The position numbers and the translations under genes are program-made. A model generated the notes under the pieces. That model was not told the DNA's origin, searched no databases, and saw only the letters and a list, made by a program, of their open reading frames with translations. DNA of 64,000 nucleotides from Isoetes taiwanensis (lineage: Eukaryota > Streptophyta > Lycopodiopsida > Isoetales > Isoetaceae), in contig JAJEKV010000080.1 of the NCBI GenBank assembly GCA_021234155.1, positions 2,244,623 through 2,308,622 on the forward strand. Direction: 5' to 3'. Shown here one piece after another: positions 795 through 37,600 of the stretch. The stretch's first letter is position 1. Every line of letters starts with the position of its first letter.

Positions 795-819
795 AAGTCG
801 TATTTAATTAAAGTGGGAC
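795..819 (+). repeat. Left terminal inverted repeat of the 11.6-kb transposon
   Basis: 25 bp beginning AAGTCGTATTTA and containing TTTAATTAAAG. It is an exact reverse complement of 12398-12422. Similarity stops sharply on both sides, as expected for a short-TIR transposon. Confidence 0.9.
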
Positions 820-1112
820 TCATTCCATTCCCATTTTTTTCGGAACCCTGTTAATTTACACGAAAAGGAGCACCCCGACCCGAAAACTATCCTTAATTCG
901 AATTTTTGTCTAGAACTCTGCATCGAAGCCCACCTCCAGGTTTCCCCTGGATAAAGAGTCGAGAACAAGAACAATGCAACTGAAACAAAGGAAATTCATT
1001 AAAGATTGAAACCAAAGCTCTAGTTGAAAAAGAATTTTTATTAATAAATTGAATAGGTACAATGTATTTTACATTGGACGCAGAGACCATGGCGGTCTCG
1101 CTGTCACTACAG

Positions 1113-1569
1113 TTACATCATCTTGGTAGGTGGTCCACCTAAGGGGATTAACTTGCGGCGCTTCTTCACGCCGACTGTAAGCCTTGGGGGCAATCTGAAG
1201 AGTGTGGAATGCCTCACGTGGAGGTGCCTCTGGAGCTCTACCGCCGACCTGTCACCCGACTTCTCCACTCGCCTCCCGCAGCCTTTCATCGAATATGCTC
1301 CTTCCCCAACCTCCGTGGATGTTATGCAATGCTTGCAAGATGCTTTGAGCTTCACGGACTTTCTCTTTGTTCTTTATTTCTTTATCCCCGGGGTGTAGCG
1401 AGCAACCTCTGAATTCGCGAACAACCTTATCCGGGCAAGAGTGTGGCGTGGTAGGGATCGTGCGAAACAGTATTTCTTTAAGCCTTAGCGGCGGGATGCA
1501 TGCCGCTGGGGCGGTCTGTGATGCCTGGCGGGATGCGTGCTTTCGTGTCGGATCACGTGTGCGAACCAC
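1113..1569 (-). pseudogene. Unidentified exon-like region inside the transposon
   Basis: GC-rich sequence with a minus-strand frame open from 1569 to 1252. It includes KVVREFRGCSLHPGD, then KNKEKVREAQSILQALHN, which look like real protein (charged, helical). After a frame change the coding-like character continues to about 1113. It lies downstream of the stop of the FCP1-like pseudogene on the same strand, so it may be a separate gene or a 3' exon. I do not recognise a family. The plus strand is open across part of the same interval, and strand choice rests only on amino-acid composition. Confidence 0.3.
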
Positions 1570-1699
1570 GGAGCAAGGAGAGTATGATTAACAATAACGG
1601 TGCCATTAGTCAAAACGAAGAAAAGAATGTTGAAATCAAATTACAATGGAGAACATTCATTCCATACAAGCTGCATCCAATGGCGTGGGAAGTAGTGTC

Positions 1700-1724
1700 T
1701 TTCTCGACTTCGCGAGTCGAGAAA
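1700..1724. repeat. TTCTCGACT/AGTCGAGAA palindrome
   Basis: Ten-base arms TTTCTCGACT and AGTCGAGAAA around TCGCG. It is a member of the palindrome family scattered over 1.7-8 kb of the transposon. A half copy (TTTCTCGAC) follows near 1830. Confidence 0.8.
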
Positions 1725-1933
1725 AGGCGAGGAAAAAATCCAAAGTACAACCATTCTCATTAGAATATGGTTGCATCCAATCACACACGGAAGCATACAA
1801 ATGGTTTCGTCAACGAGACAAGCAGTGCCTTTCTCGACAACTCAATATACAAGTATATTCATTACAAAATGTAAGTACATTTGTTCACGTTTGTTTACAA
1901 TATTCACACAATTTGACTATCTGAAAGCAGAGG

Positions 1934-2610
1934 TCAATCTTCTTGATCACCAAAATATTTGTCGTCCATAGCTTTCATGATCGCCTTGCTCTCGGATCGG
2001 GTTTCGTGGAGGCTCGGATAGTTCCTAATCACATCGGCGACAAGAATGGCAAATAGGGATTCCGCCAAGACAGGACAAAGTCCGAAAGACAACCACCTAT
2101 CCATCTCATACTCTTCAGGTCGATATGCCTTAGCAAGGATTGTATTTTGCGAGTTATGATAGCACTTGTAGGCGGAGTCGTCTATGATCGCTGTGTTGTG
2201 TTTGCCATAGTCGGGGAATTGCTCATAAACCACCATCCGGCCTTTTTCACCATAATAGGCTTCCCCTTTGTGATGGCTGGATCGAGGTTCCGACACATGC
2301 TTTCGACCCTTTTCGGATCCCAAACGAACTTGAACTTAAAAAGTGGAAGGCCGAGAACATTAAGAACATTGACAATATTTTTCTTTGCCATACAAGACCA
2401 TATGCCCACTTTGAATCCCGTTCCATGCACCATTCAACAATTTCCTTTGCTCTAGGTACCGGATACACTATTTTATGCTCCGTTTTTCGTCCGGGATCTG
2501 CGAGGTGTTAAGCTTCGGGGCGTCTTTATCGTGGTATCTGCGGCTAATACTCCATTGGCGTCAAATATTACAAGCTTGGCGGGACCAATTTGGATCCCGT
2601 TGGAGTTTGG
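1934..2610 (-). pseudogene. FCP1/NIF-like (HAD-superfamily) phosphatase domain, frameshifted
   Basis: Minus-strand translation gives a recognisable FCP1-homology domain spread over several frames. First comes AKLVIFDANGVLAADT near 2580-2535, which is motif I (D-x-N-G-V, the Asn variant common in plant homologues of DxDGT). Next is VYPVPRAKEIVEWCMER, then a frameshift into FKVGIWSCMAKKNI and FVWDPKRVESM. KGKPIMVKKAGWWF follows, another shift occurs, and then KHNTAIIDDSAYKCYHN (the DDSxYK motif) before a C-terminal tail ending KAMDDKYFGDQED at 1934. Enzymes of this family dephosphorylate phospho-Ser/Thr, classically on the RNA polymerase II CTD. At least three frame changes mean that no intact enzyme is encoded as read. 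Its position inside a DNA transposon suggests gene capture or an accessory transposon gene. Confidence 0.72.
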
Positions 2611-2815
2611 CTCGACCATATTTCCGGTTCATTGGGATCCATATCGCGGGATCATTATCTTTTCAGGTCCTTTACGGGCCGTGGCGGTGTCTTTTCTGGA
2701 TTGTCTTTGTGGAGTGCATTGTCCTCCTCGCGGCGTGAACCGCCGCTAGATATTGACAATGATCCGAGTCGTTGACATGGAACTCCACGAAATGATGACA
2801 TCTGTCGAAAGGAAC

Positions 2816-2895
2816 GCGAGTTTTTCGATTTCATGAAGTCGAGAATGGAAAAAAAAGTATTGAAAGGAAGCGAGTTTTTCGACTCGTGAGTCGAA
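2816..2895. repeat. Two CGAGTTTTTCGA-type palindromes
   Basis: Two related palindromes lie about 54 bp apart: TTCGATT/AAGTCGA at about 2823-2842 and TTTCGACT/AGTCGAAA at 2876-2895. Both are preceded by GCGAGTTTTTCGA. They lie just downstream of a minus-strand GTGAGT splice donor near 2921, that is, in an apparent intron. Confidence 0.7.
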
Positions 2896-4600
2896 ACACC
2901 GATAGAACAAAAGTAAACTCACCTCAATCTCGATTCTCAAGAATGTGTTCGGCAACATTCTGGTCTAAACCTTCGACATTTTCATCTCCGTCGGCTTTAT
3001 GCGCCTCGCTCGAGGTTTGTCTTCGTCCTCGTCGTCTTTCTTTGCTTCCATTTGTCTTCCTCCCTTTGAAATGCCCATGAAGCGGATCCGGGTATGACGA
3101 ATGGTTTCAACCATGTCCTTATTTCCAACCACGGATATAGGTTTCATTCCATAAAGCATAGCCCCTCGAGAGAACAGGCCATTCATGTACCACTCGCATA
3201 CAATTTGATCTTCCTCGACCAAGCTGGTTATGAAGTACTTGATAACTCTTGGCCGGATAGGAATTCTATGTATAGGACCTGTCGCACCATCTTTCTTTGA
3301 CTTTGTCCATCGATGGCACATCCTCCATAAATCTGCCGCCCTTCCAGGGTTCCATCTGCTCTTGAGAGATCATGAACCTGTCGAGATAATGATGTTCGCT
3401 AGACCACCACTTATCTAGGTCTATAGCCGATCTTGAAATCAAAACCAAAACTATATTGGCAAAGCTTGGTGCCTTGGCAAGCCAAGTCTACACTCATGTT
3501 CAAGTTCAGGTATATGGAGTACATGATCTTGTTGGTGAAGTTAATATCACCGCCCATTGGGAGACGGTTTGTCGATTGCCCGGCATGCAAAAGACAAGGA
3601 AACTGAAAGTATCAGTCGGTCATGTCCGGCACGTCTTGTACCACTTGCTCTATGTCACTTTGTCATAAAAAAGGGTGGGGTCTTCGATCATATTGATGGC
3701 AAATAGTGCCCCGCGGGTCCAGTGCAGTTCGGACCACCAAATCCCTTGTGCCCCAAAGTTACGAGAAATGGAGGGGAGCTATCATCGGCCTTAAATGGGA
3801 CCACCCCGAATCAAGCTTCCTCTTGAGAATTGCCATAGCACGTTCGAGGGAAGGGAAGGGTTTTGACGTTACGCTTTAGCTTGGTGTTGATGTAGGGTTG
3901 ACATAGGCGGTTCAATTCCTTCATGTCTTCCTCATCAAGGGCAGCCTTTTCCTTGTAATAATCAAAGTCATGGTATTCATTAGATGCAACGTTGCGAGAA
4001 CTTCGTGATGCCTTCTTCTAACGCTTATTTGTCTCTTTAGGTTGTGGCATAATCCTTTCGCGCCCCGCATTTTAGAACTCCTAGTCTTCCTTAGCGGGGA
4101 TTGTTCCATCAAGATTACGCCTTGTAGGTCAAGCGTTTCTTTGTCGTCGGGCCACAGTATCCTTTTCATGAGCGCTTGTCGAGCGGCTTGGGGTCCGGCA
4201 CGCTTGGAAATTCTCCATTGCTGTCCTTCAGCCTTGCCTCTTATCCATTGAGCCCATATCTCATCCATTTCTCCCCGGACCGCCTCGATTGCTAAGAATG
4301 AGGTCATATTGGTCCGAGAGAGACTCTACCCTTCCTTGGTGTTCTCTTCTTCTTCTCCTCTTCATCTTCTCCCTCATCATCTTCCTGGCCCTCCGTGAGA
4401 ACATATCTGCGAGTTTCTCAAAGGTCTTCCACTTATCAGGGAGCCCTGTTTCCTTTAGGGCCGAGGACAACCCAATGCTTTCCAGCTTGTTGCGGCGTGT
4501 ATGATCAGTCGGGATCACGGGCTGCATTCGGTCAATGTCCCAATGTCGAGCATGAAAGTATCTACAAACACCCAAGGTAAACACTAAATAGTAGCCCGAA

Positions 4601-4684
4601 GTAGAAGAAAATTAGACATTCAAGGGACTTTCGACTTCGCGAAATGAAAGTCCCTTTGAATGTCTAATTTTCTTTTACTTCTAC
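4601..4684. repeat. 84-bp near-perfect hairpin
   Basis: The left arm from 4601 (GTAGAAGAAAATTAGACATT, then CAAGGGACTTTC) is the reverse complement of the right arm ending CTTCTAC at 4684, with two small indels. The apex contains CGACTTCGCG, so it also carries a copy of the short palindrome family. It lies in an apparent intron of the minus-strand pseudogene. Confidence 0.85.
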
Positions 4685-4882
4685 GGGTTTTCGACTTCGC
4701 GAGTCGAGAAAGCTATGCATCCTTTGATTTCTGTGTTCCCTGGCTTTCGACTCGCGGTCCGAAACCCCGATGATAATCGGAAATGTTAGGATGGTAGGGC
4801 TTTTCGACTTCGCAGTCGAAAAACTGATGATAAAGGGAAATGTTAGGATGGTAGGGCATTCTCGACTCGCGAAGTCGAGAAT
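4631..4882. repeat. Array of five TCGACT palindromes at about 57-bp spacing
   Basis: Palindromes start at about 4631, 4688, 4744, 4801 and 4858, a spacing of 56-57 bp. The best ones are 4688-4711, 4801-4822 and 4858-4882 (ATTCTCGACT/AGTCGAGAAT, perfect). The last two spacers share a direct repeat (GAAATGTTAGGATGGTAGGG), so at least part of the array arose by tandem duplication. The whole array is intronic relative to the minus-strand exons at about 4.58 and 4.91 kb. Confidence 0.8.
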
Positions 4883-6443
4883 GGAAAGAATCGAGAGTTA
4901 TTTACCTTTACGTAGGCGGCACTTTGCTATTGTGTTCTGGCGGTGGCTAATCTTTGGCCGGTTAGGTTCTTGGCGTCTCCATTTGAAGAACTCTGCACTC
5001 TCGCTTGGCATATCTATCCTTGATCGCTGCGGCACCTCCTTCTAAAATGCGCAATACTTGCGCCCTCAGCGAATCTTGACCGTCCACTACCCGAACGGAC
5101 GTCTTTTCCCTTGAGGTCTTCCTCGGACTTCGGTGAACAACTGGCCGGTCGATCTGCTGAAAGGTATGACATCCATGGGCATTGGATCTCGGCAGCGGGG
5201 ATGTCGCACCATCGGGTTGAGAATCTCCGGCATGTGTGCTTTGGATTAAATTCAATGGTTGAACAAGGCGGCATCTCCGGTGCGGACCGGGGGTCGATGT
5301 CCAAGAGCGGCTTGTGTGCTATTCCCAACGGATAATACTTGAGCCAGCCGGCTCCATTTTACGTGCCCCTCTACGTGAAATCGATCTGGTCATCACGGAT
5401 CCATTAGTTGGGAGTCCACCATATCTTCGTCTGCTTCATCATCGATTCCTCCCGTGTGGTGTCATCTTCTCCATCTTTGGTCTTGTGGGACTTTTTACGT
5501 ATGAACCACAACTTCCCTCCCCTTTGCAGAGTGTTGTAGAGTCTTCCAGACGGTAGAAGTGAAGCTCCCCGTATTGAATAGTTTTTCCCTGACTCTGGAA
5601 ATCTCCATTCCAAGCTCCCTGGATGTTAGGGTTCCGGCCTCCTTCATCCCTTCCAAATCCTTCCATCCAAGGTTCTGACAATTTAAAGCGTAGGCCTTTT
5701 GTGCGTGCTTATAGCCCTTGCTCATGGAAGAGTGAGAATAATTTGAAACCGATAATTTTTAGGTGTGATAGAACTTACTTTTCCGGCGGTCTTGACATGT
5801 AGTGTTAGATGCTTCGAATCTGGCGCTGAGACGGAGAGCACAACACCGATTTTCTTGTACTTGTCTCCGGAGCTCTTCTTGTCCCTTTGGTGGAGAAATA
5901 GATCTTTCTCCTTCCCACTTCGCGATACCTCGACATACCACCAAGAATCTCTTTGGTGTGTCAAAGCTCTGTCTCCAGTCCCTCGATGGCGAAGAACGGA
6001 GTTGGCCCGGTGATCACTAGTGAGTCAGCGGTGAATCTTTGCAAGGCTAAAAGGATGGATCGATGAAGGTATTCCGACCAAAGAAAAACCTCGAGCTCAC
6101 CTAAGCCTTTGTCTTTTTTCTTCTTGCTACCGCTAGAACCGGCATCCCCTCAGGCACCTCGCTTCTTCGACGGATCGCCATGTTTGTATGCCCCTCATCT
6201 TCTTCCCCTTTCGAACCCATACGTAAATTAAGTTTCCTCCGTGGCGTTGTAAGTTTTAGGACTGCATGTAAAAAGATCGGGCGTGTTCTTTAATTTGAAT
6301 TTAAGGACATGCAATCATTTAAGAAAAATGCGGGCTAAAGTGGTACCGCGACGGTCGTCTTTAGCCCGCCCCAAACACTATTTGAAATTGAATCACATCA
6401 AGGGACTTAGTGAGCGGAGTGTAGTTTATCTTCACTCGACGGA

Positions 6444-6797
6444 TTGGCGACTTTGAGTTGGGAGGCGAGCATCGGCGCAGCGACCTCGGAATGGCGCCCT
6501 GACGCAGTAAGCTCCTCCACCGGCGCCTTTGCTCGTGTATTTTTTGACGACAGCGTCTTATTGCAAGCAGTTGATTTGATCGATGAGCACGGAGCTAAGG
6601 TAGGAAGCGAAGAGGAGCTTCCAGACACGGGAACTCTACACTGCTGCGCCATGGAACGGGGATACCACGAGAATCGCGATGATACAAGTATTAGATGAGA
6701 ATGCACTCTTGATGAGACCGACAGAAGAAGCAAAGACTCTCGGTGAGGCTGCGGGATCCGTGATACAGTGGCCCAAGGAATTTCTGCGTGAAGAGGT
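6444..6797 (+). pseudogene. DUF8039-like exon of a plant transposon protein
   Basis: Plus-strand coding-like sequence. One frame reads FDDSVLLQAVDLIDEHG. A second reads ELYTAAPWNGDTTRIAMIQV, then LLMRPTEEAKTLGEAAGSV and IQWPKEFLREE, ending at a GTGAGT splice donor (6798). The pattern of A/LLxRPTxEAxTLGxAxGSxxxWPK is what I remember for the domain (Pfam DUF8039) found in plant En/Spm-type and related transposon proteins, whose function is unknown. A frameshift separates the two parts. Its downstream exon could not be identified, and it may belong to the same plus-strand gene as the transposase at 9.3-12.2 kb. Confidence 0.45.
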
Positions 6798-6893
6798 GAG
6801 TTTCAGAGCTGCCTCTGTTATTTTGCGTGTAGAACATGCCGTCAGTGTTTAGATTATGGAACTGCTCGTGTTTAGACGGATTTACTGTTTCCT

Positions 6894-6957
6894 TGTCGAG
6901 CATTTTTCAGCTTCGAGAGATGATTTACTCTCGCGGCGGTTGAGAGATGCTCGACAC
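6894..6957. repeat. Imperfect inverted repeat TGTCGAGCAT/ATGCTCGACA
   Basis: Ten-base arms TGTCGAGCAT and ATGCTCGACA flank a 44-base centre that contains a second inverted pair (CGAGAG and CTCTCG). It is probably a relative of the shorter TCGACT palindromes. Confidence 0.6.
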
Positions 6958-7108
6958 GCGAAAAAACAATGGATCGAGGCTAAACTTGAGCGATTCCGTT
7001 TTAGGTATTTTTATTGGAATGTTTTCTTGGAATGTTGTATATAGAACAGGCTAGGTCTAAGGCCCAGGAGGTGCGGTTCAAATGCATCCTCCTGTGGTTA
7101 GTCAGAGA

Positions 7109-7702
7109 GGTCTCCACCCAGTCGGAACCACTCCTCTTCGCAATATTCGAGGAAGATGGTTCGAAGGAGAGTGGCTCAGACATGCTAGAGGCACCTGGGA
7201 CTACAAACAGGAGAATACAAAGTGCTTGGTTGTAGAGACCTATACTAAGACCCAAAGGCCTGCAGACAGTCAGGGCCACTTCCCTTCGCAATATTCGAGC
7301 AGTATAGTTTGAAGGAGAGTGGCTCAGACTGCCTCTAGGCACCAAGAATGCGGGGCCGAGGCATTGCTATGTGGGATCGGCGAAGATGGTTCAAGGAGGC
7401 GGTCTTTTTTTGGGTAGAGGCCATGTGGCGCCCACACATACGGGAGAATTGGGTTGCTAAGAGTTGGCACCGGCGAGACGGTCAAAACCACTTCCCTTCG
7501 CAATATCCGAGGAAGATAGTTTGAAGGAGAGTGGTTAAGACTGTCAGCGAGGCCAGCTCTAGAGTGCACTAGAGCCTGCGTTTTTCGACTCCGAAGTCGT
7601 GAAACCGCCGACACCCTCGTGGTTGGTCGCCGAGGCCTCCACCCGGTCGGAGCCGGTCCTCTTCGCAATATTCGATGAGCATGGTTGAAGGAGAGTGGCT
7701 CG
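7109..7702. repeat. Four-copy hairpin repeat (CCACTTCCCTTCGCAATATT family)
   Basis: Copies at about 7109-7181, 7270-7330, 7478-7542 and 7632-7702 share CTTCGCAATATTCGAGGAAG followed by GAAGGAGAGTGG. Each copy can fold: CCACTTCCCTTC pairs with GAAGGAGAGTGG around a loop of about 23 bases. Spacing is irregular (148-212 bp), so this is a dispersed repeat rather than a tandem array. Frames crossing it are artefacts of the repetition (RILRRE repeated). Confidence 0.8.
7581..7604. repeat. TTTCGACT/AGTCGTGAAA palindrome
   Basis: Member of the TCGACT palindrome family with arms TTTTTCGACT and AGTCGTGAAA around CCGA. Confidence 0.7.
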
Positions 7703-7759
7703 GTTGGGTGGAGGCACTGCTTGCGACCGCACAAAGGGCTATTATTGAGGGGTATGACA

Positions 7760-7782
7760 TTCTCGACTCACGAAGTCGAGAA
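7760..7782. repeat. TTCTCGACT/AGTCGAGAA palindrome
   Basis: Perfect nine-base arms around CACGA. Same family as the palindromes at 1700 and 4858. Confidence 0.8.
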
Positions 7783-7890
7783 GGCTGCAGCAGCTTAAAA
7801 AGAATGTGAAGATGTTGGGTAGTTTGTGTGCAATCCGAATCAATGAGTCGAGAATCCCTCAACCACCCAGCGGTCCAGTGTACACTCCCA

Positions 7891-7938
7891 CTTCTCGCCT
7901 CGGAAGTCGAGAAGTTCTCGACTTCTTGAGTCGAGAAG
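7891..7938. repeat. Two adjacent TTCTCGACT palindromes
   Basis: CTTCTCGCCT/AGTCGAGAAG at 7891-7914 is directly followed by TTCTCGACT/AGTCGAGAA at 7915-7938. Half copies flank the pair (near 7845 and 7975). Confidence 0.8.
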
Positions 7939-8055
7939 AAGGCTGTACTTTGGACTGTTGGCAAGCTGAGGTATTCTCAACTTCGCCCTCCCTTCTGCAT
8001 GTCTCTGCGGTGGAGGATATCTTTGTGAGTTAGAAATGCGGATTCTTTGAAGCAA

Positions 8056-9035
8056 TTCCTATTCTTAGTTCTTAGTGGGAGAAAAACATTCCTAGTTATG
8101 TTACGTTATGAAACATTCTTAGGCAGGTTTAGCTATATCTTTTGTGAATCTCTTCTAGTAATGTTACGTTAATGCTCTGCAATATCTTACTTCCTAACAC
8201 TGTCTCGATGATTTCTATCTGGGTTCCTTGCTACTACTCTTACCACTATTCTCACTTGTGCCTGTACAATGTATTCAATTCAACCACAAGCAAAAAAAGA
8301 TAACAAAAGCAGAAAACAATACAAAAGGAAAAGCGGATCGCTTGAGAGATTAGTGAGATTAATGAGAAAAGCAGAAGCGGTGGAGACAAATGAGATTAAT
8401 GAGAAAACAGAGAACAGTAGAGAGAAATGAGATTAAAAAGGGTATGATATTACAAAACATACACGGAAGATTTCTTTGGATGAGGAGGAAGCTCCGTGTT
8501 CGATTCCATGTGGGTGCAGGTCCTTATACCAAAGCGTGAATAAGGATTTGTCGGTACTGTAAATTGTATCGGGGATTAATAAGAGCCTCTAACAACAGAA
8601 TATAAGTAAAAATGCGAGTAAAGGACTTCTGAGAAAACTAAAAAGCGCAGTAAAAAGGCCTCACTTTCTTCTCGAGGAAATGCCTTGGCTCGAACACTCA
8701 ATCTGCTTGAAAAACTTATTTGGAAGGCGTCCGATCCGTCGACCAAAATTTCTTTGTCATAAGATGGCCTTGGAATGGCTCGGTTCGATCGATCGCCTGA
8801 TCGGAAAACCGGGCGCTTAAGGAAGAATAGGAGGAAAATAGGAGGAAGAATGGTCGGGGGGAGAGGAAGAGGGTGCAGTTAATTATGCCTGCACCCTCGA
8901 ACCTCGTAAAAGTGCAATAATAAACTTACATCGCGTGTGGGCCATGCCCTCCATGGCGTGGCGATGGAGTTCTTGACATGGCCATGCTTTCAGCCTCTGA
9001 GGAGGCGCCACGTGGCCATGACAAGATATTAAAGG
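8056..9035. other. Non-coding interior of the transposon with one short hairpin
   Basis: I see no coding sequence here. A perfect hairpin GAGGGTGCAG/CTGCACCCTC lies at 8869-8898 with a 10-base loop. Purine-rich tracts (GAGGAAAATAGGAGGAAGAA) occur just before it. Confidence 0.6.
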
Positions 9036-9290
9036 TTATATGTTTATATATGTTATCTTATGTTATATATTTAATATGGTTTCAATGGTTGAATAGTATT
9101 AAAGGTTATATATGGTTACAATGTTTACATATGGTTTACAATGAATATGGTTGTATGGTTTAATATGATTATATGATTTTAGTTAATATGGTTGTATGAT
9201 TTAATATGGTTTAATATGGTTATATTTAATATGTTTGTATGGTTTTATATGGTTCATATGGTCATATTTGTGGTGTTTGGGGCTATATGG
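9036..9290. repeat. Low-complexity TATGGTT/TTAATATGG tract
   Basis: Degenerate short repeats of TATATGGTT and TTTAATATGG units over about 250 bp, immediately upstream of the transposase gene. It could hold its promoter, but no specific element can be assigned. Confidence 0.75.
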
Positions 9291-9329
9291 TTTTAATGTT
9301 AGCTTTTTCATTCAGGGGAGCATGTGAGA

Positions 9330-12238
9330 TGAGTAAAATGGAGCCAAGGAAGTCAGTGAGAGACCATTGCCCCTAGGCTCCAATGGAGGAAGATGGGTTG
9401 CCTTTTGTTGCACCCTTGCAAACTGGGCGGTATTCTTGAGAGGGGATAATAGCTGCAGTTGATCCATTTGATAGTGTGAATGATGAAAGGTGGGAGATGA
9501 TCATCTTGGAGTTGGCATTGTGAAGCTTCTTATCCAAGTTGATACAATCATGTCCCGGAGAAGCTCTAGTGATTGCATTTGTGCTTACGGGTTGTTGGAG
9601 TCCCAAACTCGGTTTGAGATGGCCAATCGGATATATTACACACAAGAATGGTGATAGTGGAATGCCCTATTGAACTACATACCCCAAGGCCCACCCAAGG
9701 CCATGTGGAAGATTTGGTGGTCCATGAGCATCCTTTGATCACAAGGAAGAGACGCTATGTTTTTCATAAGAGGCAGACCAAGGGTGCCCAAGAGGCCTAG
9801 AAGTGACAAATTTTTAGAGAGGATGGAAAGTATGGCCCCAACCAAAGAAAACCTAGAGGCAATTAGGGGACAAGAGTGTTGCAACCTAGATTTGCCTGGG
9901 TCGATACAATGTGGATGACCTCGATGCGGATAAGGTCCCAATACATTGGACAACTTCAAAAAGATAGGATTAATTTCATTTACTCCTTGTGTAGGAATTC
10001 CGGCTATGATGAAAACACGGGAAGGCTACTATATCAATTGAGGGGCATGAAGGTATGTATGAGAGCATTGAGATGGATTCTTGGGGTGAGCAAGTCTTCA
10101 TTTTACGGATCTTGGGAGCGAGGTTAGAAAAGGGCACCGGTTTGTTCCAACATGGTAATGCACTCACTTTGAAACCTAGAGCAAATACTCTCAAGGCCAT
10201 TGCGGTCTTGAGAGCTTTGTGAGATACATGTCTCAATCTATGCCCCACAAGTCGAAGGTGAGCGAGCATTGTGTGCGAAAGTGGTCCAAAGGGTATTGCC
10301 ACAACAACATTACATCGGAAAAGAGTGCCTTAAAGAGGTCAACTCCATCCTAGAAACTCTTGGAGGTAGGCCTCTTTCTCAATCACATTTCAGCAAGTTA
10401 TGGAGCACTCACTTCTCGGGGCGTGAGTGTCCCGCAACACATGCCATTTTCAAAGTGCAACACTTGCATTCAACTCAAGGATACACTTGCATCAAGCTGC
10501 AATAGAGAAAGAAAGAATGGCAATTAGGGAGCAATTTGCGGATCACCAAAGGGACCAAATATCATGTAGGCGGTTGTATTGGCGGTGAAGAACATTTTCC
10601 GAGATTGGCGGACAAATTTTTTTGTGTATAATTCATGATAAGATGGACCAACACAAGACTTTCTTGCCAAAGCTAGATCCTTTACCCAAGCGTTGTCAAA
10701 ACGCTTTTCAGATGAAAGTAAGTCTGGCGGGTGTCTTAACACATGGTCATGGAACTGGAACATATGGTCATTTTGTGCTTGATCTATGGAGGGATGATCC
10801 AAACTTCCATGTGAGCTCTATTTTCAAGTGTTTGAGAACACTAGAGAAAGGATCAATAGAAGGGAGGAGGTATTCCCCTTCAGCACCCATTTTTGAGGCT
10901 TTGATGGATGATCAACCGCTTTGTTACCAAAGGCAGATAAAAAGGCTCACATCCAAGGTGTCTAGTGAATCAAGGAGGACTTGGGATGATTTCCCCTTAC
11001 TTGAGAAACCACTGCCTGAGGAGCTATGTGTTCAATTGGACAACTGTTGGAAAGAAAACAAGAATAGATGGATGTTTGGGGCAATGTCATACTTGACAGC
11101 AGTGGGAGTATTCAAAGTTGTGAAAGTGGGATTCATGATGGTTGGGCATACGCATGATGATATAGATGGGTTCTTTGGAACCTTCTCCACCAAGCTCAAG
11201 AGAGAAAACGTGACTAGTCTACCTGAACTAATGGATGTGTTTGAGAGCTGCATTGACCCCAACCCAATGGCATTCTTGATGGATGAGGTTGCAGATTGGA
11301 AATCATTTGTAGAGGGATACTTGCTAGATGGTAAGGACCAGTTGACAGGACACACAAAGCCACTTCAGTTCAAGTTTTGGGTTAGGGATGGAATACCAAT
11401 CATGCAATATAAGTGGAGACCAGGTGACAAGTTGTGGATGCCACGTACAAGGAATCGAGTTGTGGCGAGGGGTGTCTTTGCTTTGGTGAAGTTCTCATCC
11501 CTAAAGGGCAGCCAAAACCACTACCTCCCTTCAAGACTGTCAAAGACTCTAGCCAACTAGTGAAGGGCATCAAGGATTACATAACGCCCTTGTTGAAATG
11601 GAAAGCACACCTCCACTCTTAAGAAAAATCAAATGGACTCCCTAATCAAGTACTGGGAGAAAGTTGTGACATGCTTAGAAACTGAACAACCATGTGGGAG
11701 GAAGCTAAGAGACGGGTTCTTGCCAGAGTCAAGATGGGAGGGTTCTCAAGGAGCAAGCACGTCTAAGAATGTTCACTTGGGTCCTAACAAGGGTTCCAAG
11801 TGGTTTTGGGAAATAAGGCCTCAAAGCCAAAGTGGTTTGATCTTCCCGAGTGGGATCCCTTTGAGGACATCAAGGAAGGATACTTTGTGCTAGTAAGGCG
11901 ATGATGAGGGGCTGTCCAATATGGTTAGGGGTGGCACTCTCGATGTAACCACCACTATGCACGATGGAGAGGAGTTACGTCACGGATTCCAAATTCAATA
12001 TTGGGAGCCCATTGGGAGACACAAGAAAGGCAACTTGAAGGAGCAATACACAATTCTTGGGGAGAAGAAGTGGAGGGCAAATTATGCTGATCCTCAAAGG
12101 AGGGAATTGGTGGAGTGTGTGGTATGGTCATATCCAAGTTCTCACACTGCAAAGGAGAACACACACAAGATCCCAAAAAGGGAGATGGACAAAGCCATGA
12201 GCAACCTCCATGCTATATCATTGTATGAAGGTAGATAA
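9330..12238 (+). pseudogene. DDD/E-type transposase (DUF7869-like), frameshifted
   Basis: Plus-strand gene in pieces. A possible start is MSKMEPRKSV at 9330. Then come RWEMIILELA (9.5 kb), RGRPRVPKRPRSDKFLERM (9.8 kb), and a conserved block YIGQLQKDRINFIYSL and VCMRALRWILGVSKSSFYGS (9.94-10.11 kb). LSQSHFSKLWSTHF and a CxxC knuckle KCNTC follow (10.38-10.47 kb). A clean 312-codon frame (10622-11560) then carries the likely catalytic acids: HDKMDQHKT (about 10637), VQLDNCWKENKN (about 11038) and VGHTHDDIDGFF (about 11155). The C-terminal part (11921-12238) includes FQIQYWEPIGRH. LDN..ENKN and GHTHxDID are hallmarks of the family I remember as DUF7869, and an RNase H-like DDD/E fold is inferred. 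It would cut and join the TIRs in the nucleus. Several frame changes (some may be introns) make it non-functional as read. Confidence 0.8.
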
Positions 12239-12397
12239 TATTGAGAAGCCTGAGAACTTTCTCAACTAGTGGTTTGTAAAATTTACGAGGAAAACAAGTA
12301 ACCCAATTCTTTGTGTGTGATGTGTAATTCTATTCAAGCAATGAATTCAGAAATTTTTTTGTCTCATTTTCAGTCCGAGTCCCAAAATTCAAGATTT

Positions 12398-12422
12398 GTC
12401 CCACTTTAATTAAATACGACTT
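12398..12422 (-). repeat. Right terminal inverted repeat of the 11.6-kb transposon
   Basis: Exact reverse complement of 795-819 (25 of 25). It is followed by CCTC (12423-12426), the right copy of the target duplication, and then by the copia RT frame (codons for VYLLKKE read on the minus strand). Confidence 0.9.
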
Positions 12423-14809
12423 CCTCTTTCTTCAGCAGATAAACATTACCATCATTTTCTAACTTTGTGAAGCTTTGTTCCTTTAAAAAATTGTCAAAAC
12501 AAAAATACCATTGCCTTGGAGATTGCTTCAGACCATAGACAGCTTTCTTTAGCCTCCACATCTTTTCTTTTCCAACTTCAAAGCCTTGGGCTTGTCTCAT
12601 GTACACTTCTTCCTCCAAATCTGCATTAAGAAAAGCTGTGCAAACATCCATATGATGTAAGTTTAAATTCAAAGCATTTGATATGGCAATTATCATTCTA
12701 ATGCTTGCTAATTTAACAACTGGTGAATAGGTCTCATCAAAATCCACCCCTTTTCTTTGTGAATAACCTTGAGCAACCAGTCTAGCTTTGTGCTTTGGAC
12801 TACCATCAGCATTTACCTTCAATTTGTGTACCCATTTATTTCCTATTGCATTTTTCCCTTTTGGCAGGTCTACTAATTCATATGTAGACGTCCTTTCAAA
12901 TGATTTCAACTTCTCTACCATTGCTTCTTTCCATTTTTCACAATCAAATGAATTAATAGCCTCCTCAAATGTTTCTGGTGTTCCAGATTCCAACACCATG
13001 TGTATTTCTTCTGTGTTTTCTTTTAAAATATTTTGTAACCTACTACTTCTCCCATTTTCTTTCCTGCCAAAGTTATGTATGTCGATATTAATTTCTTGTT
13101 GCAACCTTTCTCCATCATTTTTCCTTTTCTTAGTCTGATCCTTTGCTTCTTTGTTTTCAGCTGGTCCAGGTTCCTGTCTTACCCCTGCAATATTTTCTTC
13201 ATTGTTATTTCCTGCTAGTTCATTTTCTTGTCTTTCCCCTGCAACATACTCATCTTCTAAACTTTCAGTGTCTGAATCTACATCATTTGCATTATTCTGA
13301 GGCCCTTCTTCTTCTATTGTGGTATTTGGATTTACCTTGCTATCAGCATTTGAGTTTTCATCCCCTTTTACGGTCTCCTCCTTTATTGAAGGTCTATATA
13401 ATGTATTTTCTTCAAATATTACATCCCTGCTCACCAGAATTCTCCTTCTACGAGGATCATACATTTTATATCCTTTAGAATGCATATCATAGCCTACCAA
13501 GTAGGTTATTATTGACCTATCATGTAATTTTTGTCTTAACTCTTGTGGAATATGTGTGTACCCAAGACAGCCAAATACTCTGAAATTATCATAATTTGGT
13601 GTTTTGCCTGACCAAATATATTCTGGAATTTTTCCTTCCAGACTTTTTGTTGGCAAAGCATTTTGTACAATCACAGCAGTTTTAACCACTTCCTCCCAAA
13701 GAAAATTGGGTAGACCTGCATGTTTCAACATGGATCTTGTAGCATTCAAAATAGTTTTATTCTTTCTCTCAGCCACACCATTCTGTTGTGGTGTGTGGCT
13801 GCATGTAAATTGCCTTTTAATGCCCTTGTCAATACAAAACTTGGCAAATTTTCTTGACATATATTCTCCTCCTCGATCAGACCTCACACATTTGATCCTT
13901 TTTCCAGTTTCACATTCTACCTCTGCTAAAAAAGTTTTGAATGCTTCAAAGGCTTGATCTTTTGTTCTAAGACAATATAATCTGATTTTCCTGCTGTAAT
14001 CATCCACAAAGGTTATAAAATACCTCTTTCCTGTTATTCCTGTCACATTCAATGGCCCACAGAGGTCTGTATGAATTAACTCTAAAATATCATTTGCCTT
14101 TCCTTTTGCTTTGGAAAAGGGTAGTCTGGAGTGCTTTCCTAACATACAACCTTTGCAAGTGTAGTTTTCTGTTTCTTTGTCTGATGATGCTAACAGGCCC
14201 TACTTTATCATGAATTCAATATTCTTCACATTGGTATGTCCAAGTCTTTCATGCCACATCGATATATTTGGTACTAAAGTCAAGTTAACATTTCCAACTG
14301 ACCGAGAATTTAAACCAAATAGATTGCCAACTCTTCTTCCAATAAATTTTAATTCATTTCCATCAAAGATTTTACAATGTTCAAATACAATTCTCAAACC
14401 CATATCAACTAATTGAGATATTGAAATCAAGTTTCTAACTAAACTTGGAACACACAAAACATTTTGCAGATTCACTACTCTTCCATTCAGATCAAAAAGC
14501 TCAAGAATTCCCACATCTTCAACTCTTTGTAAGTCACCATTTCCTACTTGTATATGTCCACCTTGGCTTCCCGTTTTTTCTTTTAGGATCTTTGAGTTGC
14601 ATGCAATGGACTTTTCTGCTCCACTGTCTAAAATCATAAAGTCATTGTCAAGAAGTTTATTGTTAGGAATAATAAAAGCTCTATGCATTCTTACCCTATC
14701 TTCTTCTGTTTCAGTAACTTCCTCAAGCATGATTTCTTCTGCAATATTTGCTTCAGCATTTGAGCTACTTCTGAATCTTCCTCTTCCTCTTCCCCTGCCT
14801 GTTGAATAT
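12423..14809 (-). pseudogene. copia-1 gag end, protease, integrase and N-terminal reverse transcriptase
   Basis: Minus strand. From 14809 the Arg/Gly-rich end of gag leads to the aspartic protease (FMILDSGAEKSI, about 14.63 kb) and the pre-integrase zinc region (MWHERLGHTN, then CKGCMLGKH). A stop near 14200 breaks the frame between the HxxxH and CxxC halves. From 14145 the frame is open for 579 codons. Integrase catalytic residues lie in HTDLCGPLN, RSDRGGEY and NGVAERKNK, followed by the copia-type C-terminal region (RRRILVSRDVIFEE), an acidic linker, and RT (KHKARLVAQGYSQRKGVDFD, MDVCTAFLNADLEEEVYM, YGLKQSPRQWY). It ends at VYLLKKE where the TIR transposon begins. The last four codons of the open frame are transposon sequence. 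Confidence 0.93.
14805..14809. repeat. Target-site duplication AATAT, left copy
   Basis: AATAT precedes the TG of the LTR at 14810 and recurs at 26914-26918 directly after the CA of the other LTR. One copy restores the copia gag frame. Confidence 0.92.
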
Positions 14810-27821: not shown

Positions 27822-28629
27822 TGTTAGGAAATTATCAGAGAATAACCAATATTTGTTAACAAACTTCAATCACCAAGCATTAGAAATAAACAATCAATGA
27901 ACATGATGATCTAATTACATAAGATCTTTCATGCAACCTCAATCATTTATATAAGTCACAAACAAACTTCATCCTTATATTATCCAAACAAATATGCTTC
28001 ACCATTGAATTAAATCATAGTAACACTGTTCATAAGGTATTAAAATAATCACTGTAGCATCGGGCATTATACCATTTCGATCATCAAATGCTTACCTTGT
28101 CTTCTGCCCTTGCACTGTGATATGCACACTGCAAAATCATATTCACATTGCTACTTAATTTATCCCAGCAGTCCGGCGGTCAAGCCAGACCGCTTGCTTG
28201 ATATCCTTCGGATTCTCATGCCATTCCGGCATTGGACCGAGCTTATTTGAACCGAAACTGGCTCCAAGTATCTCGATAGCATCCTTTAGATATTCTTCAA
28301 TTTCTGCTTAATGGTTTAACCATAAACAATGTTCACCAAATAGGTCATGTATTTGACCTAATGTTCTAACCATTAAACCTTTTCTTCAACCTTAGGATTT
28401 AACTTCTATAAGTTTCCCTAATTGCTTTTCCAATCTCGTTCTTGTGCATAAGCATTCTCTGTGATCAACCTTCAAGCACATAACTCATCACATAATTTAA
28501 GCTTAGCATTTTTGCAACTGTCTCAGCTCCATCAACTGTCTTTAGTTTTCTCTATGCAATAACTTCTTCAAATATTATGGCATGTACTGAATTCCAACAT
28601 CATGAAATATTATGACATGAACTCCAACA
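27822..28629 (-). repeat. 5' LTR of copia-1
   Basis: In plus-strand reading it begins TGTTAGGAAATTATC at 27822, next to the PBS. The outer end is probably CCAACA at 28629 (minus-strand start TGTTGGAGTTCATG). A second CCAACA at 28599 is an alternative. The partner LTR is outside the window, so the outer end cannot be fixed by comparison. Length is about 0.78-0.81 kb. Confidence 0.75.
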
Positions 28630-28697
28630 GGATACTATCTGATATATTGTATTGTGACCATCTCATAGGCCAGTTGGCCTCCGTGGATGTTAAAATA

Positions 28698-28968
28698 TCC
28701 TTCCTTCCTTCCTTCCTTCCTTCCTTCCTTCCCTTCCCCTCCTTCCTTCCTTCCTTCCCTTCCTTCCTTCCTTCCTTCCTTCCTTCCTTCCCCTTCCTTC
28801 CTTCCTTCCTTCCTTCCTTCCCTTCCTTCCCTTCCTTCCTTCCCTTCCTTCCTTCCTTCCTTCCCTTCCTTCCTTCCTTCCTTCCTTCCTTCCTTCCTTC
28901 CTTCCTTCCTTCCTTCCTTCCTTCCTTCCTTCCTTCCCTTCCTTCCTTCCTTCCTTCCTTCCTTCCCC
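28698..28968. repeat. (TTCC)n microsatellite
   Basis: About 270 bp of almost pure pyrimidine, TTCC units with occasional TTCCC variants. Long open frames on both strands (FLPS and KEGR repeats) are artefacts. It lies about 70 bp outside the copia-1 LTR. Confidence 0.97.
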
Positions 28969-28969
28969 A

Positions 28970-29985
28970 TGGATGTAAACTCGAAGTGTTCTATTCTGGA
29001 GAGGAGGAGGGGGGGAGGGGTGTTAGTCCAGTGCTCAAAAACACGAGAATGTACCTGTGATATAAGGGCAAGTGCCATGGGAAGAACCCTAAAAAGAACA
29101 TGCTAAAGAAGAGACAAAGGAATCCTATGGCGCGAGGTCATTATGGGCTTGGAGCATGATTACTCCATGACAGAAACCACGACGACCATGAGCTAACAGC
29201 CATCAGTTAAGGAGATTCTTTAGGTATCAGCAGAGATCTCTGGAGTACCTCCAAACAGCAGTTTTATGATTATGGGCCCAAGGTCATTGTACTATATATA
29301 TATCAAAAGCAAAGACTAGATGTTAGACAAGATTTAGCCTTTTCTTGTTAGAGCCTCTGCATTTCAGACGAGAATCCTTGTATCTCATTATCATCACATC
29401 AAGATATCTTCATTTTGTTGTTGATGTTTCTCTTGTTTTCTTGTTGCTCATTCAGTTCGTTTATTCTTAATTCTTTGGAAAATCCCACGTTCTTTGCTCA
29501 AGATCTGTCTTGAAGGTGATTTTGGGCCTAACCAAGACCCCAAACAAGCCTCTGTTGCAGTCAAACTACACATCTCTCTAGCTGCAAAGAGTAGTCTTCT
29601 GCTTTAAACTTGGATCTTCAAGGCTCGTTACAAGTACAGAGGTGAGCCTCCAAAAGGGAACTACTCCTACCCTTGTGTACAAACCATGTAGTATCCTTCA
29701 CGTCAAACACTTGCCCTCAAACTAGCAGTGTTCGAGGTGAAGGACACTAGATACAACTCATTTTGACCCTTGCCCCTAAATACAACTTTTGAGCTGCAAA
29801 ACGCATAAATAGAGTGCAAACTTAAACAAACTAAACTTTTTTGCTACATAAGATTTCTAATTTACAAGCTGAGTACATAATCGAGCATGTTGTTTAACAC
29901 TTATATTGCACTTTTCTTAATAAAAAATACAAAAATTTATCCAACTCGTGTTCATATTGTATAATTTTATCCTATCAATGAACTC
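28970..29985. other. Non-coding flank after the microsatellite
   Basis: I see no gene. A G-rich run (GGAGGAGGGGGGGAGGGG, about 29.00 kb) and a TATATATATA stretch near 29294 stand out. The TATA-like run followed by about 400 bp of T-rich transcribed-looking sequence resembles a solo LTR leader, but no LTR boundaries or duplications were found. Confidence 0.4.
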
Positions 29986-32149: not shown

Positions 32150-33560
32150 AACAACTTCTGAAAAAGAAAAGTTGACTAAACACAGGAAGAAGACACAAAT
32201 TATCCACTCGGTTATGTGCCAATTGTCATTGGTGGAATGGAGCAGACAGAAACAACTCTAATCACACTTTATCAATGCGCTCAAGGATGCTTCAGAAGCA
32301 AGTTTTCTACACTTGCACATTGTTGGTGCCGTAGTTTTCAATGGGAATGTTTCTTATAGGACATTTCTGAATTATCCAAATATTCGTGCTTGATCCTATT
32401 CTCACTTCTCACTATCACAATCTGGCATAAGATTCTTTCTAGTTTGGAGCATATACCATCAGTGTTGTACCTCCATCTAGACAATACAACGAGAGAGAAT
32501 AAAAATCAAGCATTGTTTATCTAATGTCCTATACCCTTTGAGAAATGAATCTTCAAGATGGTGAAGATTGGTTCCTTCTTATTGGGCATACACATGATCA
32601 AATTGATCAAATGTTTAGTAGCTTCTCTAAACATATTGCTCGAAACAAATCTCTCAGCCTATTAGCAATGATTGAGGTAATCCAAGATTCCTACAATCCA
32701 CGTCCAGAAATGGAGTTGATGGATAAGGCTTATAACTTCAAGGAAGTGATTTTTCAAAAACACTAGATGGGTCACTGTGCTATTGAGCCTTTAAGAAATA
32801 CCATGTTTCAGCATCAAATCAAATTCTCACTTAATATAAAGGTGGCAAGGCCGCATTGCGAGGCAAGAAATATGCCACATCCTTATAGTGACAACTAGCA
32901 GGTGGTACTCAATTCACTCGTAGTTCTATGTTTTGGTAGAGGAAATGCCTTTCAGAAGTTTGAAAGAAATCACAAAGAATAAAAAGAAAGGAAGAGCATT
33001 TGACTCAAACACGTAATTGGATTGCATTGAAACAAGCATTCAATCATGCTCTAATTATTTTGAGGAAGCAGATACTTTATGTTGGCCTCAGTTTTTTTGC
33101 TATGCAATGTGAGTTGTTACATGCCACATCATAAGGTCAAAGACCTATTGTCTTTGACTGGCCAACTAGCAAAAGGTACAAGTCGAGATTCAAGCGAAAT
33201 GAATGCCATTGGTGCCTATCTTAGATGAGGATGATAGAATGATGTACGCTGGTCCTAGATGCACGTCGCAACAAGTTGCCGGGGTCTCCAAATCCATCTC
33301 TAAGATTCGGAAAGGATTAATGCTTGTTGCTATCCCTTTTGATGATGACGAGACTTGGAATGGTTGACTAAAGTACTAGATGTAACACAAGTCCTACGCA
33401 ACTAAAAGTGTGCTAGATTAGAACAAGTGGGGCCAATGCATTCAGTGGGAGTTATAATATGGAGATGGTAAAACCTGGAGTGGAAAAGAAAGCAAAGGCT
33501 AAATTCTAATTGTTGCTAACAAATTGCATATTGTGACTCAAAGTTGCTAAGGTTAGTACG
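32150..33560 (+). pseudogene. Relic 2 of the DUF7869-like transposase
   Basis: Plus strand, heavily frameshifted. HIPSVLYLHLDNTTRENKNQ (about 32.48 kb) holds the second catalytic Asp. FLLIGHTHDQIDQMFSSF (32.57-32.63 kb) holds the third, followed by SLLAMIEVIQDSYNPRPEME. Toward the C-terminus, MPLVPILDEDDRMMYAG and GLMLVAIPFDDDETWNG (33.2-33.37 kb) are open, then a trace similar in position to the C-terminal domain of the 9.3-12.2 kb gene. The sequence has diverged clearly from that copy (IGHTHDQIDQMF against VGHTHDDIDGFF), so it is a separate lineage rather than a duplicate. No TIRs were found around it. Confidence 0.72.
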
Positions 33561-33690
33561 TAGATTGAGTAACGCACCCAAAAAAATTGCCAAAGATGAT
33601 GAAGAAGATTCATTGGTGCATTGATGAAGAAGATCGTTTGAATACATGTAGTTTTGAGAGTGAGACGGAGGATACATATAGCTCTAATAG

Positions 33691-33713
33691 AATAGAATAG
33701 AATAGAATAGTTT
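33691..33713. repeat. (AATAG)n microsatellite
   Basis: Short run of AATAG units within the tail of the transposase relic. Confidence 0.85.
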
Positions 33714-34369
33714 TTTTAATGGTCATGGTCTGAACGAGTCAGAGGATGATATGCATCTTGATTTAACTTCAAAATGTAAGTTTGCCCAATAAGGCATATA
33801 TTTAAACAAAAAAAGCTTCAAGGGCTGAGGCATTGTCAAAGCATGTTACATTTTTGACAATTTTGTTCATAATTTTATAGAGATCTCAAAAACTTCGCAT
33901 GCAATACCTTTTTGTCACGCTAGTGCATTTTGTATTTTTTTTTGATGTTCCCCCCAAAAAAACCCCTTTTTTGAGTCTATAGGATTCTTAATATTTTCCA
34001 TACCAAAGTAGGGGGCTGAAAGCGTATCAAACATTTTTGCGCGGGAGCTAATCTCAAGAATCCTTCAAAAATAGTACCTAAAATGTCCATATTGCCATAG
34101 ACCTCCAAAACGATTTCAAAGTGCATTTGGAGAAAATTAGTGCATTTCAATTTTAACTTTATTCTTTCTTGCATAGTTAGAAGGATAATCATTCAGAGAT
34201 TGCCATAACCAAACGTATAACTTTATTTGTATAATACATGTATAATACTCAAAGAGGAATTGACTAAAACATGGGATCCATTGAAAAGAATAGAGTTACA
34301 ATAGAAAAGGAAGGCTCATATGACTACATAATGCTTTGTTTATCTTGGCGAGCACTGTTGCATCGTGCA

Positions 34370-34600
34370 TTGGATTAAGCTCTTACAATCATTCATGATA
34401 AAATGGACCAGAATAAAACTATGGTGCTTAAGTTTGAGAAGTTAGCCAAGTCAGTATGGAGAGAGGAGATCTATAGGTAGCTTTGATGCATAGTCATGGG
34501 TTAGGAGCAATAGGCCAGTTTTGGGTTGGGCTTTGGTAGGATGACTCTAACTTCCACACTGGGGGCAGGTTTGTTAAGTTTCATACTTTTCGTATTTTGT
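34370..34600 (+). pseudogene. Relic 3 of the DUF7869-like transposase (first catalytic block)
   Basis: LTIIHDKMDQNKTMVLKFEK (from about 34381) aligns with IIHDKMDQHKTFLPKLD of the main copy. After a stop and frame change, the traces GAIGQFWVGLW and DDSNFH match the block that follows in the main copy. It lies downstream of relic 2 although it encodes an earlier part of the protein, so it is a third copy or a rearranged piece. Confidence 0.7.
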
Positions 34601-37600
34601 TTTCTGAATTTGATTTCTATGCATCATTTAAAGAGGAATGGAAGGCACTATGAACGGAAATGACTATTGGAATGGATGAAGATATCGCCGTCAACACTGA
34701 AAAAGAAAAAAATAAAGACATAAGGATTGTGTCTGATTGGCATGTGCTAGTTAAGATAGTTTTTTTTTTGACAATTTATTGTTCCCTTGTTTCTTTATTT
34801 ATTCATTTATTTATTTATTGTCACTGCACTTCGTGTCCATCAAAGAAAATAAAACAATGATTTATCAACAAAGGTTTCACTTCTACAGCAAGTTTTCGTA
34901 GCCATCCCATATAAAAACTAATAGCTCATTTCTAGATTTTAGATATTCATAAAGATGTTCTGATCCCATGGAGTCCAATAGATTTGACAGAGAGCACATT
35001 ATATGGCGATCTCAGACATACCAAAGGTCGGTTAATTCAATCAAAGCATGGTCTTCATCCTCCACTTGTGTTTCAAAACAACATGGGCGTAAATGCAGCT
35101 TCCCTTTGGGATCCTTTGCTCGTCTTTCACACACATGCTAAGAATGAGAACTAAGTTTGAATTTCTCGCAGAATTGGATTGCCGCTTTTTTCCGGGCGGC
35201 TCCATCTTTAGGTAGGTTTACTTTCATATACTACTATAACATTAACTTTGTCTAGAAATTTCTTATCCCAATATCGCTGACAATAAGCACTTGGTAATGC
35301 CCGCTACCACATATGCACGCAAATCTAAGACCAGATCTAGGGAGATCATCAAGATCCATACCCCAAAAGCTGCCCAATCCACAAGCAGTGAGTATACCAC
35401 CGCATGATGCCGTGTTTGGGATTCTCATCGTGTCCTCGCTAAGTATCCCATTATCACCATGCTCCGCACTCGCAGTAGGGAAGAGTTTGAAACAACGTGC
35501 CACCTCCGCCGATACTTGATGCCGAAAGTAACCGGACCACACGGCTTTAATTTAAATTCAGCAAATGTTCCTAAGATGAATAAAGTGATCTTCGAGGAAA
35601 TACCTGGACATTGCTCAGACAATCAACTATCCGGGTGGAGCAAAATATACCATTGCAACATAGACTACAAACTGGCCCTAATTTCCAGCCACATATACCG
35701 CTTAAAACTACATGTTTTTACCACTTTTATCTGCTGGAGCATACAGCATGCACATAGCAAGCAATGCCACCAAAACCTCCTTCCCATACCTTTATATCCT
35801 ATAATCGATTCAATTAATGTAACCCGCACTTTCCTCTAATCTACTCGTTTCATGTTCCAAGTTTCCAAGCACAACAACCTATAGCTTCCAAAAGGATGCA
35901 ATTAGACTTGTTTCTCACTAAAACTGGCATCCACCATACACTTGAGGGGTCCCTGGAATTCTATTCGACAATCTTAGCTTGATCTCCATTTTCTCTTTAC
36001 CCATAACTTGCCTCCTTGATGCTTTCTTTGTTTTTATATGCTTTGCATCTTCTGCACTTATCCTACCTTCTCGTTGTCGGCTTTTCAAGATGAGATCATC
36101 AAGCTAAACCGTGACAGTCGGCCTTTTAAGCTACCGTTAAACATGACTCATTCCCGCGTTGCACACTTTTGAAACTTAATGATAATTGGTCTTGGTTTAC
36201 TCTTGTTTCTTTTCCCACAATTAAAACAACCAACAAAATCAGATCATGTAAATGTATTTCATATTTCTTCAAAGAAATCACCATTGCTTTTGTCACATTA
36301 GAAAGACTCCTCAAAACTTAATATTTGATCGCTTGTCGGTATGGGCTTGTTCTCTCTCATAACATTACTAACACGTACCTTTCCATATTCGCCAGCGACC
36401 TTTTTCTATCGCCCGTTCGTCCCTTTACATCTCGCTTTCATGTTCAATTTTCTATCCGCTTCTACATGGTTGTCTAATCGTTCTTTTCTTATAATTCTGA
36501 TTCACCGGCATCGTAAACAAGTCATTTTACATTTTCGGTTTTCAATCGCTCCTGTGCCTTTTCTTTCACAAATTTTAATTTAGTACATTAATAACTAAGT
36601 TTTTTGTTTTGGCATTGAAGCTTTTCATGTCTTGAGCTTAACCGCGACATCCTCGCGATCCCATCGTGGATTAACTGGCAGTTAGCAGATTGATTTTCTT
36701 CAACCGTTTTCTCTGCTCTATCACGACCGGGCCAGCTAAAGCGTAAATCAAGCATTTAATTGTCGCTCTTGTTATTTGTAAGGAAATTCTTTAATGTTTA
36801 GATATTTCAAATTGTCCTGCATGAAACCATAAAACATTTGCAAATAAATAAAAGCTTGAACTGCATATAATAAAAAAGAGAAGGATGTGGGATTGCTACC
36901 AATCAGAAGTTCGAGAAGGCCAATAAACCACAATAATGAAGAGGATAAAAGGGATAAAAAAAAGAAAAACAGGAAGGATAGAAGGCATGGTTCTTCTTTA
37001 TTCTTTTGTTAGTCCGCCTTATAGTTGATGTGCAATTAACAAATAAACAAATAAACATTTTCTAGGTGTGTGTGATATAAACTGTGGGCTTATGGGTTAT
37101 CTCGCATGTTTGTTCACCCTCGCTTCAACATATATACACACTTATTGCATTTGTAACTCAGCTATGATCCCTATGCTCCTATTCTGGCATCTGAAATTAA
37201 CCACATTCTTTAGAATTAAAGAGTTTTTTTTTTTTTGAAAACTATCGGTTAGTATCTGGAGAGGGGGGGGCAAACAAATGGGAATAGACAAGGACCTTGA
37301 AAACAGGAGAAAAAATGACAGTGGCGAGAAGATGGAGAGAACGGCCTGATGATGCAGAGAGCAAGAGCACAAATAATACTAGACGAGTTAAATGTTCTCC
37401 AAAAAGAGGTTCTCAGAAAATTCAAGAAGAAATGCAGATCGGAGTTCGTAGATTATGTGAGGAGATTAACGGAAGTAGGAGCCCTATGGATAGAATAGAG
37501 AAAGAAGAGGATGCCATGGGGAAAGATGAGCTGTTAGACTATTTATATAAGCTCAAAAAGGACTTCACAAATTAATCGTAAGATTTGGGCATGTTACTTA

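Follow-up and report, generated by a model that had tools for sequence, protein, structure and literature searches.

What kind of element interrupts a copia reverse transcriptase (RT) gene in the lycophyte Isoetes taiwanensis, where it begins and ends, and what its genes contribute to it are the questions raised by positions 795-12422 of a 64-kb stretch of contig JAJEKV010000080.1, the whole of which was analysed and is referred to here as the window. The terminal inverted repeats (TIRs), the 4-bp duplications, the predicted fold of a transposase with three aspartates (DDD) and a second gene together lead to a cut-and-paste transposon of the DDD type that carries one gene besides its transposase. 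We hold with considerable confidence that the insert belongs to a class II TIR family with a DUF7869 transposase, whose small class would be moved in trans and whose second gene probably acts as a helper or anti-silencing factor. The assembly searched comprised 1,658,258,908 bases in 1110 contigs and all genome counts are lower bounds; scores and identities cover the scored or listed subset of the first-look candidates. Ten sibling copies, picked by their best left-end match to the window copy, were taken over 16.5 kb each.

The boundaries of the element are formed by four features.

791-794, no strand: target site duplication CCTC, left copy (from the paralogous sites read)
795-819, + strand: left TIR, 25 bp (from its exact genome copies)
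12398-12422, - strand: right TIR, 25 bp, exact complement of the left arm
12423-12426, no strand: target site duplication CCTC, right copy (from the empty paralogous sites)

The perfect 25-bp TIRs reported in the preliminary description, which was made from the sequence of the window alone, were recovered in full, the two arms being complementary at 25/25 positions and the only matches to the TIR within 3 mismatches in the window, where 0 were expected (100 shuffles); the element termini read 5'-AA..TT-3'. The CCTC duplication and the restored copia RT frame that it had described also hold, as 60 nt of each flank joined through one CCTC give a single frame that is open throughout, including YVDD, whereas the same flanks with both CCTC copies retained have stops in every frame. 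Stronger evidence for the boundaries than this frame argument comes from the empty sites: one CCTC and no insert were found in 10/10 paralogous copia copies (90 bp read per copy; 10 of 40 scored matches, with 1479 first-look candidates). Identity at these sites ranged from 61/64 bases on the left and 30/30 on the right (L088) to a left side with only 41/64 bases identical in an ungapped count (L084).

In the whole genome the exact TIR occurs 1102 times in forward and 1115 times in reverse orientation (reversed control 0 and 0), so the family is multi-copy. Over the left 406 bp, 39 other scored copies (of 2140 candidates) have 94-97% identity to the window. Among 100 TIRs listed, 34 neighbouring inward pairs were found, 26 of them 3-16 kb apart, together with one outward pair and zero same-strand neighbours within 16 kb. 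In 20 of the 34 pairs the flanks of both ends were scored, and direct repeats of at least 4 bp flank 18 of these 20 (4 bp in 16, 5 bp in one and poly-A up to 6 in one), against matching flanks in 2/380 mismatched TIR pairs used as a control. Among the ten siblings and the window copy, both ends were in reach in 7, and an exact 4-bp duplication was present in 5 of these. That an assembly inversion or a chance inverted repeat produced the 25-bp arms has a practically negligible probability and was rejected, since nothing was found in its favour and the genome-wide TIRs, the duplications flanking TIR pairs and the empty sites all speak against it. A few observations do weigh against so regular a picture: 2 of the 20 pairs lack any direct repeat, a pair 77 kb apart on contig C24, left out of the 20, has non-matching flanks, and among the siblings the flanks of L017 agree at 3/4 bases while those of L021 disagree. 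The element is thus marked as a class II TIR transposon by inverted terminal repeats, a 4-bp duplication as the rule, and empty sites. It had been called complete, which is right for its ends, while its genes are broken by frameshifts and stops; with intact ends and broken genes, the window copy would be mobile only with help from another copy. At G000:C16:327873-339935 (L044, L045) one copy is flanked by TGTAC, a duplication of 5 bp rather than 4.

The transposase is encoded in the right half of the element.

9329-12238, + strand: transposase gene, likely ATG to stop, frameshifted in this copy
10589-11560, + strand: open 323-aa (amino acid) core, DUF7869 by Pfam, with a predicted DDE/D integrase-transposase fold from a structure model
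10637-10639, 11039-11041 and 11165-11167, + strand: probable catalytic Asp codons, from the conserved triad

The protein of the open core, known earlier by its GHTHDDID motif, matches Pfam PF25273 (DUF7869) at an expectation value (E) of 1.9e-44 with 152 bits against a curated cut-off of 26 bits, and this is the sole Pfam match of the element transposase at E up to 0.5. Its conserved acidic triad has the arrangement D-D-41-D, and a confident predicted model of the core corresponds to the DDE integrase/transposase fold in 50/50 listed VIA-align rows; the core is therefore probably a DDE/D transposase in which three aspartates would serve catalysis. Constraint on the transposase is visible in the ratio of nonsynonymous to synonymous differences relative to neutral (N/S; single-difference codons, reference frame versus other copies), which is 0.20 and 0.28 for the transposase parts, and in a third-position excess of mismatches. 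Searches of PDB sequences with the transposase profile (E up to 1) and of NCBIfam with the transposase (E up to 0.1) gave no match.

The transposase had been described as uncommon, a view that could not be maintained: DUF7869 yields 9903 first-look candidates in this genome, the 150 scored all lie above the cut-off and several of them have long open frames of up to 987 aa, and 116 database relatives exist, including proteins of Physcomitrium patens and Mercenaria. The core is 28-46% identical to the 33 relatives compared. DUF7869 had 0 matches in 14 control genomes, but NIF, a domain general in eukaryotes, had 0 there too, so these genomes, which are probably prokaryotes, are uninformative on eukaryotic DUF7869. 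A second, decayed DUF7869 remnant, 29-40% identical to the family protein, lies at window positions 32453-34761 on the + strand, with no convincing TIRs around it among 25 listed inverted repeats.

The superfamily to which such an element belongs was weighed against published signatures, the papers cited here being represented by excerpts. According to the excerpt of PMC10741241, Sola elements have a DDD transposase, a 4-bp duplication, a size of 2-9 kb (some >15 kb) and TIRs of 11-1124 bp, and occur in Physcomitrella patens; the excerpt of PMC9033089 likewise gives the DDD transposase and 4-bp duplication, and that of a bivalve paper (PMC10294476) names Sola profiles. By description the present element shares the DDD triad (its catalytic role being predicted) and the 4-bp duplication, so the label of unassigned superfamily was not upheld, these being published Sola traits. 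That it is a Sola member, for example of the Sola1 group of Physcomitrella, with only the family and the second gene new, is quite possible if somewhat short of probable: the triad, duplication, size and TIR range all fit the excerpted description, both hosts are seed-free plants and Physcomitrium patens has DUF7869 proteins, yet neither the Pfam name nor the source names of the database relatives mention Sola. The excerpted descriptions of Sola (PMC10741241, PMC9033089) also differ from the element in mentioning no NIF/FCP1-like gene.

Other placements could be judged by quoted signatures. Repbase has 23 superfamilies according to the excerpt of PMC10045372, which gives C/DxxH between the second D and the last acidic residue for hAT, MuDR, P, Kolobok and Dada, 5'-CC..GG-3' termini for piggyBac, and 3-bp and 8-bp duplications for Zator and Merlin. 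C/DxxH was found between the second and third Asp in 0/69 sequences, which rules out the first group; piggyBac is ruled out by the AA..TT termini, and Zator and Merlin by the 4-bp duplications. CMCT is excluded as well, its CxxC signature (C(2)C) between the second and third Asp being present in 0/69 sequences and its usual 5'-CA..TG-3' termini being absent. For Ginger, with its Gypsy-like integrase, no Pfam match other than DUF7869 appeared at E up to 0.5, the general integrase fold being shared, and Academ, Novosib, KDZ and IS481EU were compared via the Pfam scan only, in which DUF7869 was again the sole match. The catalytic domains of retroviral integrase, IstA, Mos1 and TnsB differ, with 4-15% identity over aligned residues, and in the element an Asp forms the third residue, at a spacing of 41.

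A further reading, which we entertain only tentatively, takes DUF7869 as a superfamily that may be distinct from those described. It draws on PF25273 as the only Pfam match, on the missing CxxC and C/DxxH signatures and AA..TT termini, and on the names DUF7869 and PF25273 being absent from the open-access literature searched, an absence that is weak evidence and means only that the domain is not discussed there under that name. What sets the present element apart from the Pfam family, of which its core is a clear member, is that a functionless name is here tied to TIRs, duplications and a predicted transposase fold.

On the strand opposite the transposase, the large copies carry frames d, c and b, and a weak frame lies near the left end.

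1072-1431, - strand: weak left-end frame a, a 174-aa open reading frame (ORF) in sibling L019, of doubtful coding status (N/S)
1937-2923, - strand: second gene part b, a NIF/FCP1-like HAD domain by profile matches, broken here, first motif without the second Asp
3154-4561, - strand: part c, a constrained protein without assigned function, a 476-aa ORF in sibling L021 (sibling ORFs, codon statistics)
5143-6091, - strand: part d, a constrained protein without assigned function, ORFs of 236 aa (L013) and 173 aa (L023) (sibling ORFs, codon statistics)

The window copy of frame b gives a weak NIF match (E 0.022) below the cut-off, whereas in sibling L021 the frame is open over 320 aa and matches PF03031 at E 1.3e-9 with 38.4 bits against a cut-off of 21.8 bits; it also matches HAD_IIID1, far below the cut-off of that profile. 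The earlier term phosphatase-like pseudogene is thus right for the broken window copy, but a host phosphatase pseudogene was given up as a reading of the gene, since the frame is open in L021 and stands beside constrained c and d. Relative to neutral, c and d have N/S values of 0.25 and 0.29, against 0.72 in b and 0.65 in a, and mismatches by codon position number 71, 88 and 221 in c, a third-position excess that is smaller in d (64, 48, 91) and a (42, 40, 57) and missing in b (89, 84, 88). Their constraint makes c and d likely to be genuine genes of the element. The weak overall constraint of frame b counts against a working role for it, although its domain part fares better, the last 200 codons holding 41 synonymous versus 52 nonsynonymous differences (about 0.45). 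Splice-like borders read by eye suggest that d, c and b are probably spliced together as one gene, whose introns would contain palindromes. An IS1182 (NCBIfam) match of part c at E 0.019 was far under its cut-off and was taken as chance.

FCP1-type phosphatases carry DxD in motif I. The first HAD motif is readable in 8 of 11 copies, window included, and its third residue is N in 8/8 (DVN in 5, GVN in 2, DAN in the window copy), so that ordinary phosphatase catalysis is doubtful; the first Asp is also gone in the two GVN copies. The altered motif points to a binding function rather than to the usual chemistry of a phosphatase. Searches with the HAD protein gave no PDB match at E up to 0.1 and 0/824 candidates at E 0.001 in a word-based protein search.

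Alternatively, the phosphatase-like part might contribute nothing to transposition and be a piece of a host gene that travels along as passive cargo, in the manner of Pack-MULEs. The weak constraint of b, its missing third-position excess and the abundance of NIF domains in the genome (3261 first-look candidates) would agree with this, but the b motif persists in 8 of the 11 copies and the neighbouring c and d are constrained like the transposase, and we consider passive cargo unlikely. Across the genome, linkage of NIF and DUF7869 was not enriched when the best 150 of 3261 NIF and the best 150 of 9903 DUF7869 candidates were compared (1 pair against 0.54 expected at up to 20 kb, 3 against 2.7 at up to 100 kb), a test with little power because only the best 150 of each were used, and no DUF7869 lay in the 3.5 kb read around one NIF candidate (L089); we therefore make no claim that the NIF gene accompanies DUF7869 elements generally. 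About 100 of the 150 listed NIF/FCP1-like candidates are dispersed with similar scores (61-85 bits), as might be expected of a second family that is mobile or has expanded.

Capture of an unrelated protein by a transposon has precedents: excerpts report TET/JBP genes captured by fungal transposons (PMC12730594) and a homing endonuclease in KolobokP (PMC9587614), which likewise join a transposase to an accessory protein, whereas the accessory domain here is HAD/NIF-like. A literature search on transposons that carry an NLI interacting factor did not find that name among the matches listed.

Two size classes are present among the 26 TIR pairs, 12 at 3.5-5.8 kb and 14 at 11-14.8 kb. When three small elements were compared with the large element (about 1.5 kb per end), the shared stretches measured 136-213 bp at the left and 62-105 bp at the right; other small-versus-large matches (E 1e-5) span 24-87 bp and, where positions were compared, lie on palindromes. 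The small elements look non-autonomous. The palindromes and a second repeat family are placed as follows, the former from a window scan and the latter from a repeat search.

1704-1720, no strand: palindrome TCGACT..AGTCGA, first of seven
2879-2894, no strand: second palindrome, probably within an intron whose donor was identified by eye
4691-4878, no strand: third to fifth palindromes (4691, 4804, 4862), probably within a second intron
7091-7720, no strand: four 105-nt direct repeats
7763-7934, no strand: sixth and seventh palindromes (7763, 7918), between the divergent genes

The preliminary description had spoken of two hairpin families; the palindromes bear out the first, all 7 in the 64-kb window lying inside the element, and the 105-nt repeats are present but known here as direct repeats. 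The ten sibling stretches contain 10-16 palindromes in eight cases and 3 in L011 and L015. As an exact 23-mer the palindrome has 117 + 143 genomic occurrences against 0 for the control, 100 of the places being listed. Of the seven 23-mers listed on contigs C1-C162, the contigs covered by the TIR listing, six were judged by eye to fall within or just inside an element, and the seventh, on C47, lies outside. We may guess that the palindromes are binding sites for an element protein. At window positions 4598-4681 an 84-nt fold-back, 81% complementary and without a loop, surrounds a palindrome-like core, as if the palindrome had been extended by template switching. Elsewhere in the window, positions 28563-29106 hold a long CTTC-rich simple-repeat tract that yields spurious open frames, and an Rfam scan of the window gave 0 matches at gathering scores.

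From these parts a course of transposition can be proposed. The DUF7869 transposase would bind the TIRs and cut both ends, excising the element by double-strand breaks, and the excised ends would be joined to target DNA with a 4-bp stagger, after which gap repair would leave the 4-bp duplication. The 3.5-5.8-kb elements, with the same TIRs and short end stretches, would be mobilised in trans. The divergent, probably spliced second gene would encode the conserved segments and a terminal NIF/FCP1-like HAD domain and most likely acts as a helper or anti-silencing factor, with the palindromes as candidate binding sites for an element protein. A bolder version, which we regard as speculative and rather improbable, makes DUF7869 a DDD superfamily of its own, hugely amplified in a lycophyte, whose large members carry a catalytically altered FCP1-like domain that protects the element via host transcription or silencing, the palindromes being its docking sites. 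The overall outline first drawn, of a TIR DNA transposon with exact ends, 4-bp duplications, many copies and empty sites, has stood; the parts revised are the rarity of the transposase, the pseudogene and the superfamily label.

Overall, DUF7869, which has no function in its Pfam name, gains a likely role as a transposase, and with it the 116 database proteins that range from moss to bivalve. Its abundance suggests that a lycophyte genome carries a heavy load of transposons, and the phosphatase-like gene joins the enzymes carried by DNA transposons as a testable example of how a transposon could influence the expression of host genes.

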